DNA from: Flexivirga aerilata
GTDB taxonomy: Bacteria > Actinomycetota > Actinomycetes > Actinomycetales > Dermatophilaceae
Assembly: GCF_013002715.1 (NCBI RefSeq)
Contig: NZ_JABENB010000001.1
Location: 2,046,001-2,110,000, forward strand
DNA length: 64,000 bases
Direction of reading: 5' to 3'
Shown: positions 181 to 56,769 of the stretch, one piece after another
How positions within the stretch are numbered: the first letter of the stretch is position 1
Layout of the letters: each line of letters opens with the position of its first letter
The notes under the pieces: model-generated
The model's input: only the letters and a program-made list of their open reading frames with translations
Database searches by the model: none
What the model was told of the DNA's origin: nothing
Position numbers and translations under genes: made by a program

Positions 181-200
181 CATTGGTGCGTCGTCGCACC

Positions 201-262
201 CTGACGGTCCGATTCACGTCTGACGGTCGAATGCGACCGTCAGACGTGAATGCGGCCGTCAG
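201..262 (-). terminator. Palindrome with doubled arms behind the esterase gene
   Basis: Positions 213-229 and 234-250 form a perfect 17-bp stem closed by a four-base AATG loop. Each arm holds a second copy of its core: CTGACGGTC at 201 and 220, and its inverse at 235 and 254 (GGCCGTCAG), both 19 bp apart. It lies just past the stop of the gene at 303 and probably ends that transcript. No T-run follows, which is common in high-GC genomes. Confidence 0.55.
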
Positions 263-302
263 ACTCGGTGGGAGGCAGTCATCCCGTCGGTCATCCCGGC
301 GG

Positions 303-5998: not shown

Positions 5999-6097
5999 CG
6001 TCGTCACCGAGCGGCGGCCGGTCCCGGCTCGGACCGACCTGCCGCCCGAGTGACTTCCACCGCCCAAATACCAGCATTGACAGGCACACTCGCGCAT

Positions 6098-6138
6098 CGA
6101 GGGGCACACGAATTCGCCCTGACCGTGTGTGCCTCTCG
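6098..6138. repeat. Hairpin downstream of recX
   Basis: CGAGGGGCACAC (6098-6109) faces GTGTGCCTCTCG (6127-6138), 11 of 12 pairs, with a 17-base loop. It lies in the 414-base gap between recX and the convergent LysR gene, where I see no gene. It may act as a terminator for recX. Confidence 0.45.
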
Positions 6139-6212
6139 AAGCGGAAGTGGTCCTCTCGATCAGGGGCGAGCGCGGATCGACCGGCACCTGTCTCCAACGC
6201 CGCTCCGATGAC

Positions 6213-6286
6213 CGAGTGACGTCCGCCTTCGTCGAGTGACGTCCGCCGCAATGCGTGACGACGCTGCATCGACGTCACTCATTGCG
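6213..6286. repeat. Palindromic element with duplicated left arm between recX and LysR
   Basis: CGCAATGCGTGACG (6247-6260) pairs with CGTCACTCATTGCG (6273-6286) at 13 of 14 positions across a 12-base loop. Upstream CGAGTGACGTCCGCC occurs twice, at 6213 and 6233, 20 bp apart. It sits between converging genes and could terminate both. Its GAGTGACG/CGTCACTC words recur in the elements near 23.1, 25.3 and 56.7 kb. Confidence 0.6.
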
Positions 6287-6412
6287 AGCGTCGTCACTCG
6301 GGTGCGTTCGCCGGTCATGCACCGACCGGCCACTGCGTGAGTCGGCCCGTCGGTGTAGGGCGGCGGTGGCCTAGCTCGTCGATGGAGGTGCCGCGCGGCG
6401 TGCTCCTCCGGG

Positions 6413-23052: not shown

Positions 23053-23122
23053 GCGACTGACGCTCCTCTCGCCGAGTGACGGCGCAATGGCGCCGTCACT
23101 CGGCGAGGGAGCCGTCAGTCGC
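23053..23122. repeat. Long palindrome between trpS and rtcB
   Basis: CTCGCCGAGTGACGGCGC (23068-23085) and its exact complement (23090-23107) close on an AATG loop. Outer arms 23053-23066 and 23108-23122 extend the stem to about 32 pairs with one bulge. The right arm contains the rtcB stop codon (23115-23117). It is a strong two-way terminator candidate and nearly repeats the element at 25247-25316. Confidence 0.85.
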
Positions 23123-25184: not shown

Positions 25185-25246
25185 CGGAGCATCTTGCTCG
25201 CACCCGCCGCCCGCGCGCACCTGGTTTAGCGCGCAGCTCACCCACC

Positions 25247-25316
25247 GCGACTGACGCTCCCTTCGCCGAGTGACGGCGCAAACGAGCCGTCACTCGGCGA
25301 GGAAGCCGTCAGTCGG
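25247..25316. repeat. Long palindrome, second copy of the 23.1-kb element
   Basis: TCGCCGAGTGACGGC (25263-25277) pairs with its exact complement (25286-25300) around eight bases, with outer arms CGACTGACG-CTCC and GGAAGCCGTCAGTCG. Two long words, CGCGACTGACGCTCC and GCCGAGTGACGGCGCAA, are identical to the element at 23053. The right arm again carries a reverse-strand stop codon (25309-25311), here of the zinc-ribbon gene. Confidence 0.85.
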
Positions 25317-25632
25317 CCCCCGTCAACGTCGCGTATGACGCCGCACACGCCCCACAGTCACACGTCGTCGTCGCGTGCATCGTCCCGGTGTTGCGGCGCG
25401 CGCCGGGCGCGAGCAGCGGCTCCGGGCGCCATCCGGGCAACGAGAACGTCTGCAGCACAACAGGATCCGGGTCAGGGTTGGCGCTGCCTGCGCGACAGCA
25501 GAGGCACCGGGTGTAGCCGCCGTTGCGAGGCAGGTGCCCCTCGGTCTGGTGGCCGCAGTCGCGACAGAGGTGGACCAGGGCGCTCACGCGGACGCGCGGG
25601 GGTGGGTTGTCGTCATACGGACGAGCCCACAC
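25309..25632 (-). CDS. Small Cys-rich, probably zinc-binding protein
   Basis: The 107-residue frame from GTG 25632 holds paired cysteines: VHLCRDCGHQTEGH, then RCLCCRAGS, and near the end TTCDCGAC. The first two pairs, about 25 residues apart, look like one zinc ribbon. I do not recognise the family. A short GAGGG precedes the start, and a later GTG (25593) just before SALVHLCRDC would also keep all cysteines. Codon use looks coding, and the stop is embedded in a palindrome. Function unknown. Confidence 0.5.
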   Translation of the reverse strand: MWARPYDDNPPPRVRVSALVHLCRDCGHQTEGHLPRNGGYTRCLCCRAGSANPDPDPVVLQTFSLPGWRPEPLLAPGARRNTGTMHATTTCDCGACAASYATLTGAD

Positions 25633-33652: not shown

Positions 33653-35998
33653 ATGCCTGTGGATCTCGACGACCTGATGCGTGCCGCCGTCGGGGGAGTC
33701 GGCGGCAGCGAGCGCCCGGGGCAGCAGCAGATGGCCAGGGCGGTGGACCAGGCGGCGCGGGACGGCGCCCACCTGCTCGTGCAGGCCGGCACCGGCACCG
33801 GCAAGTCGCTCGCCTACCTGGTGCCCGCGATCAAGCATGCGGTCGAGACTCGGCAGCCGGCCATCGTGGCGACCGCGACGCTCGCCCTGCAGGCCCAGAT
33901 CGTCGACAACGACCTGCCCCGCATCGCCGACGCCGTCGAGCCGCTGCTCGGCCGGCGCCCGACCTTCGGGCTGGTGAAGGGCCGGCGAAATTACCTGTGC
34001 CTGCACAAGGTCGAGGGTGGCTACCCGGACGAGGAGGACGCACTTCTCGAGATCGGCGAGGTCGATCGGGCTGCCGGCCGCATCGGCGAGGAGGTCGTCC
34101 GGCTGCGTGAGTGGGCGCAGGAGACCGAGACCGGTGAGCGCGACGAGCTGGTGCCCGGCGTCAGCGAGCGGGCCTGGCGCCAGGTGTCGGTCTCGGCGGA
34201 GGAGTGCCTCGGGTCCAAGTGCCCGATGGTCACCGAGTGCTTTGTCGAGCGATCCCGCGCGGCGGCCAAGGAGGTCGACGTCGTGGTCACCAACCACAGC
34301 TTCATGGCGATCGACTCCTTCGAGGGCCGGCAGATGCTGCCCGAGCACGACCTGCTGATCGTCGACGAGGCGCACGAGCTCGTCGACCGCGTCACCTCGA
34401 CCATCACCGACGAACTCACCGCAGGCATGGTTTCCACGGCGGCGCGCCGGTGCGGGCGAATGGCCGACGCGTCCACGATGCGTGAGGCCGGGGAGCTGAT
34501 GCAGGAGCTGCTCGACGGCCTCCAGGAGGGACGGCTGCTCGGCATACCCGACGCTCTCGGTCTTGCGCTGGCCAGGGTGCGCGACGCGGCACGCTCGGTG
34601 CAGAGCGAGCTCAAGCCCGCCTCGCCCGCCGACAACGACGCGAGCCGGCAGGTTGCCCGGGCGGCGGTCGACGAGATCTTCGACAACGCCGACCGGATCC
34701 TCGAGGGCCGCGAGCTCGACGTGGTGTGGATCTCCAAGGACCCGCGCCGCGGATCGGTGCTCCGTGTCGCGCCGATGAGCGTGGCAATGCTGTTGCGGGA
34801 CAAGGTGTTCGGTGACCGCACGGTGGTCATGACCTCAGCCACCCTGGAGCTCGGCGGCTCCTTCGACGCTGTGGCCGGCACGCTCGGCCTGCGCGGCGAG
34901 GGCGGCCCGCGGTGGACCGGGCTCGACGTCGGCTCGCCCTTCGACTACCCCCGCCAGGCCATCGCGTATGTCGCCTCACAACTCCCGCCGCCCGGTCGCG
35001 ACGGGCTGTCGACCGCCGCCATGGACGAGATCGAGACGCTGATCCGCGCCTCGGGCGGACGCACGCTGGGGTTGTTCTCCTCCACCCGCGGCGCGCGGGC
35101 CGCGGCGGAGGAGATGCGCGCGCGGCTGGGTGACGACTTCCCGGTGCTGTGTCAGGGCGACGACCAGATCCGCACGCTGGTGGGGCAGTTCGCCGCCGAC
35201 GCGCGCACCTGCCTCTTCGGCACGATGACCCTCTGGCAGGGCGTCGACGTGCCCGGTGTGTCGTGCCAGCTGGTGATCATCGACCGCATCCCGTTCCCGC
35301 GGCCCGACGACCCGCTGGCGTCCGCGCGCTCCCAGGAGATCGCCCGTCGCGGCGGCAACGGCTTCATGGCGGTGTCGGCGACCCACGCCGCGCTGCGTCT
35401 CGCGCAGGGCGCCGGCCGCCTGATCCGCCGCAGCTCCGACCGGGGAGTCGTCGCGTTCCTCGACACCCGGATGATCACCGCCCGTTATGCGGGCTTCCTG
35501 CAGAAGTCGCTGCCGCCCTTCTGGCCGACCACCGACCGGGCGCTGGTGCTCAAGGCGCTGAAGCGGCTGGACGAGACCGCGGGTCCCGTTGGCGCGCAAG
35601 CGGATCCGGCGCCCGAGGAGTCACAGGTCGAGGTCGACCCGGCGCCCGCCGAGGAGGAGCCCGGCGACATGGCGCCTGTGCCCGACCCAGAGCACGACGA
35701 TCTCGCGCCGGTGGTGGATGAGTCTGCTGGCGCCGAGCCGGTGGAGGCTCCGGAGACTGAGGCGCCGGCCTCGGCGACGGAGGCTGGGGCGCCGGTCTCG
35801 GTGACGGAGGCTGAGGCTGCGGCGACGGCACCGGTGCCCGCGGCACCACCGGCCGAGGGGTGGACCGAGGAGGACGACGAGGAGCTGCGCGACGGCGCCG
35901 AGCTCGGCCTCGACCCCGAGGAACTCGCCGACCATCTCGACCGGCCGCTGCCGCAGGTGCAGTCCCGGATGGCCCAACTCGGCCTGGGCACAACGTGA
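33653..35998 (+). CDS. dinG: DinG-family ATP-dependent helicase with C-terminal HTH-like extension
   Basis: The 781-residue XPD/DinG-type helicase has Walker A QAGTGTGKS (residues about 44-52), four iron-sulfur cysteines C116, C185, C190 and C196, and the DEAH box at 238-241. The late helicase motifs GTMTLWQGVDVPG and QGAGRLIRR are intact. It unwinds DNA 5' to 3', including R-loops and flaps. From residue about 643 a Pro/Glu/Ala-rich linker of about 90 residues leads to a final domain (WTEEDDEELRDG ... LPQVQSRMAQLGL) that resembles a Myb/SANT-like helix-turn-helix. TACCCT (33641-33646) ends six bases before ATG 33653. No LexA box was seen upstream. Confidence 0.9.
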   Translation: MPVDLDDLMRAAVGGVGGSERPGQQQMARAVDQAARDGAHLLVQAGTGTGKSLAYLVPAIKHAVETRQPAIVATATLALQAQIVDNDLPRIADAVEPLLGRRPTFGLVKGRRNYLCLHKVEGGYPDEEDALLEIGEVDRAAGRIGEEVVRLREWAQETETGERDELVPGVSERAWRQVSVSAEECLGSKCPMVTECFVERSRAAAKEVDVVVTNHSFMAIDSFEGRQMLPEHDLLIVDEAHELVDRVTSTITDELTAGMVSTAARRCGRMADASTMREAGELMQELLDGLQEGRLLGIPDALGLALARVRDAARSVQSELKPASPADNDASRQVARAAVDEIFDNADRILEGRELDVVWISKDPRRGSVLRVAPMSVAMLLRDKVFGDRTVVMTSATLELGGSFDAVAGTLGLRGEGGPRWTGLDVGSPFDYPRQAIAYVASQLPPPGRDGLSTAAMDEIETLIRASGGRTLGLFSSTRGARAAAEEMRARLGDDFPVLCQGDDQIRTLVGQFAADARTCLFGTMTLWQGVDVPGVSCQLVIIDRIPFPRPDDPLASARSQEIARRGGNGFMAVSATHAALRLAQGAGRLIRRSSDRGVVAFLDTRMITARYAGFLQKSLPPFWPTTDRALVLKALKRLDETAGPVGAQADPAPEESQVEVDPAPAEEEPGDMAPVPDPEHDDLAPVVDESAGAEPVEAPETEAPASATEAGAPVSVTEAEAAATAPVPAAPPAEGWTEEDDEELRDGAELGLDPEELADHLDRPLPQVQSRMAQLGLGTT

Positions 35999-36627
35999 TC
36001 CGTCGGAGCGAAGCGGCCGGCGTCGTGTTCGTCGTGGTGTCGGTGCTGTTGGGCGCCTACCTGACCCACCGCGGCGCATCGCACACCGGCGAGCTGCGGC
36101 TCGACATCTGGTGGTCCCACCACCGGCCGTCCTGGCTGGCCGAACCCAGCAAGGTCATCGCCCACTACGGCGCGGGCCCGCTCGCCTACCTGCCGGTGCT
36201 CGCCCTGCTCCTCGTCGTATGGCGCAAAGGCGGCATCCCGGCAGCCCTCGCCACCGCGCTGGTCTTCCTGGCCGGCCGGATCAGCGTGACGATCGCGAAG
36301 GCGATCTATCAGCGGCCGCGGCCCCCGGCGGACGTCGTGCACGCCCTCGTGCCGGTCACCGACCGCGCCAGCATGCCGAGCGGACACACAGCGTTGGCAG
36401 CGGCTTTCGCGGGTGCGCTGGTCTACGCGGTGCACCGAAGCGGTCGCTCCGTCATACCTGCGGTGGTGGTGGGGGTGCTGCTCGTGGTGGCCTACGCCGT
36501 CAGCCGGATGGTCGTCGGTGCGCACTATCTCGGCGACGTCACGGTCGGCGCGCTGCTGCCGGTCGGGGTCATGCTGCTGGTCGGCGGCCTGCTCGACCGC
36601 CGACTCGATCGCCCCGCGCGCCGCTGA
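35995..36627 (+). CDS. PAP2-family phosphatase
   Basis: The 210-residue membrane protein carries the three PAP2 signatures in order: KAIYQRPRP, MPSGHTA and SRMVVGAHYLGD. About five or six membrane segments surround them. Family members dephosphorylate lipid phosphates such as undecaprenyl or phosphatidylglycerol phosphate at the membrane. GTG 35995 overlaps the dinG stop, so the gene is coupled to dinG. The large palindromic array begins 29 bases after its stop. Confidence 0.88.
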   Translation: MIRRSEAAGVVFVVVSVLLGAYLTHRGASHTGELRLDIWWSHHRPSWLAEPSKVIAHYGAGPLAYLPVLALLLVVWRKGGIPAALATALVFLAGRISVTIAKAIYQRPRPPADVVHALVPVTDRASMPSGHTALAAAFAGALVYAVHRSGRSVIPAVVVGVLLVVAYAVSRMVVGAHYLGDVTVGALLPVGVMLLVGGLLDRRLDRPARR

Positions 36628-36655: not shown

Positions 36656-36861
36656 GACTCGTCACGTCATACGGCGACTTGTCACGTCAACGTTCACTTG
36701 TCACGTAAAAGGCGACTCGTCACGTAACAGGTGGACTTGTCACGTGCTAGAGCACGTGACAAGTCGGCACAACGTGGACAAGTCCGCATTGACGTGACAA
36801 GTCGGCATTCACGTGACAAGTCGGCAATGACGTGACAAGTCGGCACAACGCGTGACAAGTC
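36656..36861. repeat. Mirror array: eleven copies of a 12-mer around a central palindrome
   Basis: GACTTGTCACGT-type 12-mers start at 36656, 36676, 36695, 36714 and 36734. The inverse ACGTGACAAGTC follows at 36754, 36772 (one extra base), 36792, 36811, 36830 and 36850. Spacing is 18-20 bp throughout. The centre is a perfect 15-bp palindrome (36734-36748 and 36751-36765). It fills the gap between converging PAP2 and purU genes, ends one base before the purU stop, and a transcript in either direction could fold into one hairpin of about 200 bases. It is not a CRISPR: the bases between copies are only 6-8 long and themselves similar. Confidence 0.92.
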
Positions 36862-36862
36862 C

Positions 36863-37717
36863 TCAGCGCAACACGACCGTGCTGGTGCCGTTGGGAAAGA
36901 CGCGGTGCTCGGCGTGCCAGGTCACCGCCCGCGCCAGCACCTGGGCCTCGACGTCGCGGCCGGCCACGACCATCGCGTCGGGGGAATAGCCGTGGTCGAT
37001 GCGGGCCACGTCCTGCTCGATGATCGGGCCCTCGTCCAGCTGCGGCGTGACGTAATGCGCGGTCGCGCCGATCAGCTTCACGCCGCGCTGGTGGGCCTGG
37101 TGGTAGGGCCGCGCGCCCTTGAAGCTCGGCAGGAACGAGTGGTGGATGTTGATCGCCCGCCCGGCGAGCCGCGCGCAGAGGTCGTCCGACAGCACCTGCA
37201 TGTAGCGCGCCAGGATCACCACCTCGGCACCGGTCTGCTCCACCAGCTCGAGTAGCCGGCGCTCGGCGGCCGGCTTGGTCGCCGCCGTCACGGGGATGTG
37301 GTGGAAGGGGATGTCGTGCGACGACACCAGCTTCTGGAAGTCCAGGTGGTTGGAGCCGACCGCGACGATGTCGAGCGGCAGCGCGCCGACCTGCTGCCGG
37401 TAGAGCAGGTCGTTGAGGCAGTGGCCCAGTTTGGACACCATCACCAGGGCCTTCATCCGCTCGCCGGCCGGCCAGAGCCCCCACGTCATCGCGAAGCGTT
37501 CGGCGACGGGCGCGAGCGACGCGCGCAGAGAGTCTTCGTCCACCGGCCCGTGCACCCGCGCCCGGATGAAGAACTGCCCGCTCAGCGGGTCGCCGTACTG
37601 CTGGCTCTCGTCGATGTTCGCCCCGTGCTCGACGAATACCGAGCTGATCGCCTGCACGATGCCCGGTCCGTCCGCGCACTGTGCGGTGAAGACGAAGGAC
37701 TGGTCTTGCTCGGGCAC
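36863..37717 (-). CDS. purU: Formyltetrahydrofolate deformylase
   Basis: The 284-residue enzyme hydrolyses 10-formyl-THF to THF and formate, balancing one-carbon pools and supplying formate for purine synthesis. An N-terminal ACT domain (residues about 6-85, FVFTAQCADGPGIVQAISSV) precedes the formyltransferase-like domain with INIHHSFLPSFKGARPYHQA and DEGPIIEQD, which carry the catalytic Asn-His-Asp. The start is GTG 37717 with a weak GAGG site. It is divergent from holA. Confidence 0.93.
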   Translation of the reverse strand: MPEQDQSFVFTAQCADGPGIVQAISSVFVEHGANIDESQQYGDPLSGQFFIRARVHGPVDEDSLRASLAPVAERFAMTWGLWPAGERMKALVMVSKLGHCLNDLLYRQQVGALPLDIVAVGSNHLDFQKLVSSHDIPFHHIPVTAATKPAAERRLLELVEQTGAEVVILARYMQVLSDDLCARLAGRAINIHHSFLPSFKGARPYHQAHQRGVKLIGATAHYVTPQLDEGPIIEQDVARIDHGYSPDAMVVAGRDVEAQVLARAVTWHAEHRVFPNGTSTVVLR

Positions 37718-56671: not shown

Positions 56672-56769
56672 ATCCGCGACTGAGGGCTCCTCAATCCGCG
56701 ACTGACGGCTCCCTCGCCGAATGACGCCCCGATCCGGCCGTCGGTCGCCGGGGAAGGCGTCACTCGGCG
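56672..56769. repeat. Palindromic element with doubled left arm before lacI
   Basis: CGCCGAATGACGCC (56715-56728) faces GGCGTCACTCGGCG (56756-56769), 13 of 14 pairs. Ahead of it ATCCGCGACTGASGGCTCC occurs twice, at 56672 and 56694, 22 bp apart; this word is the outer arm of the 23.1- and 25.3-kb elements. The rest of the gap to 56908 holds the lacI upstream region. Confidence 0.7.

Follow-up and report, generated by a model that had tools for sequence, protein, structure and literature searches.

Mirror-symmetric repeat arrays with a common 19- to 20-bp unit pitch are dispersed at gene ends in Flexivirga

Palindromes at the ends of bacterial genes are already known, and several described systems invite comparison with the sequences reported here. 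Repetitive extragenic palindromes (REPs) of the GTAG and CGTC families are described as dispersed intergenic palindromes that lie mainly between convergent or co-directional genes in REP-rich genomes, the CGTC type apparently without a dedicated transposase (PMC3733652), and REPs have been counted in some Actinomycetota too (PMC12306157). Miniature inverted-repeat transposable elements (MITEs) are described as short, non-coding, multicopy, and hairpin-forming, with inverted repeats, and are thought to be capable of terminator action (PMC10969869). The DNA uptake sequence of Neisseria is a 10- to 12-mer whose close inverted pairs are terminators (PMC2397512) and whose dialects vary between species (PMC3630211), and the STAR elements of staphylococci are intergenic repeat loci with spacers that expand and contract (PMC3532100). 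Here, we describe an array at positions 36656 to 36861 of a 64,000-nucleotide stretch of Flexivirga aerilata (contig NZ_JABENB010000001.1, positions 2,046,001 to 2,110,000; the window), and the dispersed class of mirror elements to which it belongs. What appears to be new is the repetition of a unit within each arm at a common 19- to 20-bp pitch whatever the unit; we found no description of this mirrored, fixed-pitch layout in the open-access literature searched.

The window array mostly fills the gap between two converging genes, which end at 36627 (PAP2 superfamily) and 36863 (purU-like). The layout given in the original prediction, five plus and six minus copies of a 12-bp unit mirrored around a dyad, is real; six of the 11 units are exact, four (at 36656, 36695, 36714, and 36850) have one mismatch, and that at 36773 is a variant. 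The 15-bp palindrome reported at its center is an inverted repeat of two perfect 15-bp arms with 2 bases between them (36734 to 36765). Core-to-core steps are 20, 19, 19, and 20 bp on the left and 19, 19, 19, 19, and 20 bp on the right, so that the range is 19 to 20 rather than the proposed 18 to 20 bp. At up to two mismatches, the window holds 14 unit matches against a shuffled mean of 4.6, and none of 100 shuffles reaches 14. A hairpin from either transcript had been suggested, and the predicted folds agree: RNA of the plus strand gives a single extended hairpin with branches (−132.6 kcal/mol; z = −12.1), and the opposite strand folds similarly (−137.8, calculated without shuffles). The array provides a predicted stable RNA hairpin 3′ of a stop codon, as in an intrinsic terminator, and there are no T-tract terminators between 36400 and 37100.

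The window array is one of 20 in its genome (4.0 Mb in six contigs, 99.95% complete) that share the unit GACTTGTCACGT, which we refer to as family A. All 85 exact ACTTGTCACG sites in the genome fall within these 20 arrays (a control pattern gave four), all 20 have plus units on the left and minus units on the right, and no regional bias along the genome is obvious among the listed positions. The 32-bp dyad, with up to three mismatches, occurs 20 times in this genome and 20 times in one other Flexivirga species, and is absent from three further Flexivirga species and from 34 other genomes of the family and order that were searched; an exact-pattern scan of 84,980 species returned 15 stretches, all from Flexivirga meconopsidis Q11, in a collection that may omit the window genome. 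Family A arms have one to eight units in the window genome and one to nine in F. meconopsidis (20 of its 21 arrays, one at the edge of its stretch being left out). With steps of 18 to 21 bp allowed and ties resolved to 19 first, 124/124 steps in the window genome and 96/97 in F. meconopsidis measure 19 or 20 bp. As a rule, a variant unit (ACTCGTC or ACTGGTC) occupies the outermost position, base 4 being other than T in 27 of 39 outermost versus 12 of 85 inner units in the window genome (p = 2e-9) and in 28 of 38 versus 18 of 59 in F. meconopsidis (p = 6e-5). All 20 arrays of the window genome are intergenic, as are all 18 examined of the 21 in F. meconopsidis.

Comparison of the same gene pair in relatives places a mirror array at the orthologous position in F. 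meconopsidis, and because that genome was sequenced separately, an assembly artifact is very unlikely. By flank alignment, F. meconopsidis has an array in the corresponding position for 17 of the 20 (both flanks agreeing in 13 and a single flank in four); the reading of a unique or artifactual array is rejected, given 20 arrays in one genome and the sharing of 17 places with another species. Of the three unshared arrays, that at sigA has a different mirror element in its place in F. meconopsidis, L010 corresponds to an array elsewhere in a rearranged stretch (L043, so that these two lie at different places in the two species), and L011 has no match among the stretches compared. Over the 24 central unit positions of the 17 orthologous pairs only 5/408 sites differ (1.2%), whereas the 6-base loops differ at 36/102 sites and the adjacent spacers at 93/272; the flank alignments have 73.8 to 96.6% identity. 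The arrays are old in place, with internal turnover of their loops and spacers.

The same layout, with other units, is present in all five Flexivirga genomes and in a few cases in other genera, as determined with unit searches and a sequence-free detector that seeks an inner inverted pair with outward direct copies on both sides; because it demands direct-repeat similarity, hairpins lacking this go uncounted. Besides F. aerilata and F. meconopsidis, the genus was represented by three other species (G001, G002, and G003). The detector reported 17 clusters in 400 kb of G003 (one of which, L112:14794, resembles a coding repeat), three in 400 kb of G002, six in the window, and four in 100 kb of F. 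meconopsidis, and none in Markov-shuffled G003, G002, or window sequence at this strict setting; with one extra mismatch allowed, shuffles also yield clusters (29 real versus 10 in G003 and 16 versus 12 in G002). The basic element is about 70 to 100 bp with four units (++−−), two pointing one way, a dyad center, and two pointing the opposite way. Units of other families include GAGAGGACAG, CGAGTGACGG, TCTGACGGTC, and GCCGTTGACG, and in G001 the mirror element at the purH locus is built on yet another unit, CGAGCGGCACACA, with more such elements elsewhere; 16 elements laid out from 17 G001 stretches have two plus units, a center, and two minus units, a form set by the search.

Across families the unit pitch is 18 to 20 bp. 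A pitch scan of 964 kb gave 15 clusters at steps of 18 to 19 bp, 29 at 19 to 20 bp, and four at 20 to 21 bp, with at most one at any other step between 11 and 34 bp and a total of one in shuffled sequence; neighboring steps overlap, so that one cluster may count twice. Family B is probably related to D, and C to E and F, so that fewer independent families share the pitch than the labels suggest. Families B, C, and D are each alike over whole elements, spacers included, and so have spread by copying. Outside Flexivirga, 20 samples of the same taxonomic family gave two clusters in 343 kb, G158 gave five in 100 kb, G245 gave one in 100 kb, and 10 further samples of the order gave two in 178 kb; neither the G245 cluster nor the last two are convincing. 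By eye, only L155, L166:3085, and L168:12150 (the last two from G158) are clean and L146 is partly so. The genome of L155 (G014) contains the two-unit arm 14 times at up to three mismatches (control, four), five of them exact. Two of its mirror elements are clear, the right arm of one having three units, and a third shows a single clear unit on the right.

These elements favor gene 3′ ends. With genes called by a custom gene-finding script, two of the 30 de novo clusters from the four large stretches lie inside predicted genes and 28 are intergenic, 15 of these between convergent, 12 between co-directional, and one between divergent genes, versus length-weighted expectations of 14.6%, 56.9%, and 28.5%; both the convergent excess (p = 2e-6) and the divergent shortage (p = 0.001) are significant. 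At 28 of 36 element-bearing gene ends the element is within about 60 nucleotides of the stop codon, a figure that depends on approximate element bounds and is helped by the shortness of convergent gaps, and in co-directional gaps nine of 12 are closer to the upstream stop. Family A alone in the window genome has 10 convergent (p = 2e-4), seven co-directional, and three divergent placements among 20; for both species together, counting orthologous pairs twice, the numbers are 18, 14, and five of 37 placed arrays, with one of 38 unplaced. At some gene ends, mirror elements and plain hairpins take each other's place in relatives. Read by eye, sigA has a family A array in F. aerilata, an element of another mirror family in F. 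meconopsidis, and plain hairpins in G001, G002, and G003; at window position 219 a mirror element corresponds to a plain hairpin in F. meconopsidis; and at purU, family A is present in F. aerilata and F. meconopsidis, an element of another family in G002, and none in G001 or G003. Of the refuting outcome set at the outset, a short simple hairpin in related genomes combined with a unique artifactual array, only the first half is seen, in some relatives and at some gene ends, and the array is not an artifact.

The center combines structure with a fixed unit sequence. Across 41 arrays from both species together, 89 double-change cells were counted in the central stem versus 49.7 in shuffles, with 0/500 shuffles reaching 89 and slid controls reaching at most 42; on a weaker measure, which counts further pair types, 38/500 shuffles reach the observed value. 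The covarying pairs are in the spacer part of the stem, the unit part barely varying, and inner spacers pair above the cross-array level (4/5000 and 0/5000 permutations). The counts are inflated by related rows, and templated mutation from the opposite arm could raise them further. Only the center covaries in families B (20/5000) and D (42/5000), and in family C the outer units do (206/5000) but the center does not (805/5000). Growth of the arms by nested insertion into the center is not supported, since second-level spacers do not pair above expectation.

The mirror elements resemble several known systems and differ from each. With REPs and REPINs, in the accounts cited above, they share dispersed, intergenic, multicopy palindromes with a bias toward gene ends and convergent gaps; REPs are there single stem-loops or dimers and groups of these, whereas mirror elements repeat the unit within an arm (++−−) and the arms expand, and the cognate Y1 transposase is missing from all five Flexivirga genomes. 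Like MITEs as described, they are short, non-coding, multicopy, hairpin-forming inverted repeats, and all families have terminal inverted repeats in the form of the mirror layout, which for the de novo elements is part of the search rule; for the elements here, neither a target duplication nor an empty site was seen by eye at the loci compared, and searches of the Y1 and rve families gave no parent transposase. DNA uptake sequences, of which Neisseria has about two thousand copies, also occur singly and within coding regions, whereas the family A unit is confined to mirror arrays (85/85 exact sites), in tens of copies with several units per arm and with all 20 arrays intergenic. Expansion and contraction with spacers recalls STAR, which is described as a direct repeat, whereas every array here is dyad-mirrored. 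Intrinsic (bidirectional) terminators likewise place a strong hairpin past stop codons and between converging genes; mirror arrays differ in their fixed unit and pitch and in the direct repeats in the stem, and the window array in having no T-tract. Among seven of 17 array loci searched against Rfam, only tRNAs pass the gathering score, the matches to arrays being microRNA-precursor models below their cut-offs, and no known RNA family other than tRNAs was recovered.

We favor, with moderate confidence, the reading that these dispersed, structured 3′-end elements act as two-way transcription stops whose units are read by a putative factor. The window array is an expanded member of a dispersed, non-coding mirror-element class in which families use different, often unrelated units and retain the 19- to 20-bp pitch, the family A arms having grown to up to eight or nine units, probably by local duplication. 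Transcripts of both converging genes would fold at the element and stop or gain a 3′ end there, and a sequence-specific factor may bind the units in phase and help to stop RNA polymerase arriving from either side. The fixed unit sequence, the constant pitch, and arms that need not agree in unit number suggest a phased, sequence-specific factor, and its help is favored because a plain hairpin needs no fixed unit, pitch, or direct repeats within an arm, and the T-tract is absent. The pitch shared whatever the unit also points to a common machine with changeable specificity. We would regard as tentative, and somewhat unlikely, the further proposal of a new class of factor-dependent two-way stop, built from 10- to 12-bp units at an invariant 19- to 20-bp pitch and read by fast-changing DNA- or RNA-binding proteins of species-specific specificity, with the geometry kept across genera of the order. 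The suggestion of an overgrown two-way terminator gains partial support from the 3′-end sites, the convergent enrichment, the covarying central stem, and the exchange with plain hairpins; that of a protein-binding array gains it from the near-frozen units beside changing loops and spacers, the unit-independent pitch, the unequal arms, and the distinct outer units.

Several observations weigh against transcription stopping. The window array has no T-tract, and the unit-binding factor is itself putative. Some family A arrays lie between divergent genes, three of 20 in the window genome and five of 37 placed in both species, and the divergent shortage of family A in the window genome alone is not significant (p = 0.14). 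By eye, purH and rplI in F. aerilata retain their own plain hairpin besides the array, and the lack of a preceding plain hairpin is not discriminating, such a hairpin being present at one of 36 element-bearing ends, where a shorter stretch was measured, versus 32 of 356 others. The two arms are equal in just 5/20 arrays in the window genome and 4/20 in F. meconopsidis, second-level spacers show no pairing beyond expectation, and there is no covariation in the outer units of families B and D or the spacers of B, C, and D.

A possible, although on balance improbable, alternative is that these are MITE-like mobile elements, each arm being a transposon end with at least two transposase sites at a fixed pitch, a special outermost site, and no cargo; their position at gene ends would then reflect target choice or selection against promoter hits. 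The ends of Tn7/Tn402-type transposons, which have multiple transposase sites of about 19 to 22 bp, show the likeness, with direct site repeats at each end, inverted between ends, and a special terminal site; mirror elements differ in having neither cargo nor transposase. This reading accounts for the similar copies of whole elements at many loci in families B, C, and D, for outermost units unlike the inner ones, and for a fixed pitch with family-specific units. As an account of the dispersal, the pitch, and the special end units it does equally well, and the elements may have originated in this way even if termination is their present use. A parent is lacking among the Y1 and rve transposase families, which are those searched: there is no Y1 transposase (Y1_Tnp) in any of the five Flexivirga genomes (a control search was positive in 5/14 genomes), which speaks against an origin from REP-associated tyrosine transposases (RAYTs) and REPINs, and no rve domain in the window genome; the other four genomes have 20 rve loci, around which there are no pairs of half-elements, except three chance-like matches in one, which speaks against an IS3-, IS21-, IS481-, or Tn7-type parent as well. 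No target duplication or clean empty site is apparent by eye at window positions 219, 6099, and 25248, at sigA, or in sequence flanking 16 family B elements, the element ends being not sharply defined. Among the neighboring proteins scanned (38 beside arrays of the window genome and two beside one in F. meconopsidis), no member of a transposase family was recognized, and three have no family at E = 1e-5.

The frozen unit, constant pitch, and multisite arrays would also suit a binding array for a nucleoid or chromosome-organizing protein, part of DNA architecture rather than transcription; we consider this improbable, given the closeness of the de novo elements to stop codons and their rarity in divergent gaps, the differences in unit among species of one genus with several families within one genome, and the covariation of the central stem, for which DNA binding gives no need. 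Least probable of all is that the arrays are functionless debris, palindromes spreading and growing by slippage, quasi-palindrome correction, and gene conversion. Arm length and loops do turn over quickly, the loops CAGGAA/TTCCTG occur in 5/21 arrays of one species and 0/20 of the other, as copying between loci would yield, and opposite-arm templated mutation could mimic covariation; however, units differ by 1.2% between orthologous arrays versus some 3 to 26% in flank alignments, the pitch is constant across different units, and the elements are placed at 3′ ends.

To our knowledge, how transcripts end in high-GC actinobacteria without T-tracts is not well settled. Mirror elements provide defined, comparable sites at the housekeeping genes sigA, purH, and purU, where a related species may carry a plain hairpin, an element of a different mirror family, or neither, and because relatives differ there, the question of transcript ending is directly testable at these genes. 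The coordinates of the window array, its units, the flanking genes, and the other mirror elements of the window are listed in Table 1.

Table 1. Coordinates of the array, flanking genes, and other mirror elements in the window
Feature	Positions	Strand	Remarks
Family A mirror array	36656..36861	.	Five + / six − units, 19-20 bp pitch
Outermost left unit	36656..36667	+	Variant core ACTCGTC (end-unit type), 1 mismatch
Unit	36676..36687	+	Exact
Unit	36695..36706	+	1 mismatch
Unit	36714..36725	+	1 mismatch, core ACTCGTC within arm
Innermost left unit	36734..36745	+	Exact
Central dyad GACTTGTCACGTGCT AG AGCACGTGACAAGTC	36734..36765	.	Orthologous arrays keep unit arms, not loop
Innermost right unit	36754..36765	−	Exact
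Second-type unit (GGACAAGTCC; variant of GTGGACAAGTC type)	36773..36784	−	Core at 36777
Unit	36792..36803	−	Exact
Unit	36811..36822	−	Exact
Unit	36830..36841	−	Exact
Outermost right unit	36850..36861	−	1 mismatch, core GACAAGT, not variant end type
PAP2-superfamily gene	35995..36627	+	Converges on array
Formyl-transferase gene, purU-like	36863..37717	−	Converges on array; ACT match just under curated cut-off
Mirror element, unit TCTGACGGTC	199..264	.	Plain hairpin in F. meconopsidis at same place (by eye)
Mirror element, unit GAGGGGCACA (family found in G001)	6079..6157	.	Outer right unit poor
Mirror element, unit GAGTGACGTC	6214..6300	.	
Mirror element, unit CGAGTGACGG	23053..23122	.	Both spacers changed jointly vs F. 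meconopsidis (by eye)
Mirror element, unit CGAGTGACGG	25246..25317	.	
Weaker mirror element, CGAGTGACGG family	56677..56766	.	Unit search, missed by de novo detector

Repeats of other kinds were also encountered. Tandem repeats containing ACTTGTC, with units of 18 or 20 bp and in a single orientation in the three loci read, occur in G158, G245, and G047, with many in the first two; they lie at L057 (1360 to 1540), L058 (1490 to 1590; genus g85, of another family), and L059 (1500 to 1560), look intergenic, and are set apart from the mirror elements, to which they are possibly unrelated. Among plasmids, nothing matched the window array, L058, or L059, and a G001 element had four weak, chance-like matches. 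A different long intergenic repeat with CATAGGTC...CCCCGGTGGGGAC units lies 3′ of rplI and sigA in G002 (L071 and L139), and at the same two gene ends in G001 (L073 and L140) there is a repeat of about 60 bases with CGACGGTCGAGGGTT or CGACCGTCGAGGGTT, present twice per gene end.

Two family A loci have particular surroundings. In L017 (4366 to 8130) and its F. meconopsidis counterpart L047, three arrays lie within about 3.7 kb in both species, and two of them flank a gene for a 333-amino-acid protein with an AbiEi_4 domain, again in both. In L019 (4480 to 5011), an array upstream of the gene for trigger factor adjoins two tRNA genes of opposite orientation. Lastly, the short motif GTCATAC/GTATGAC, present in the window between 36630 and 36690, is found again on or immediately beyond the margins of several arrays and is retained at the purU orthologue of F. 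meconopsidis.
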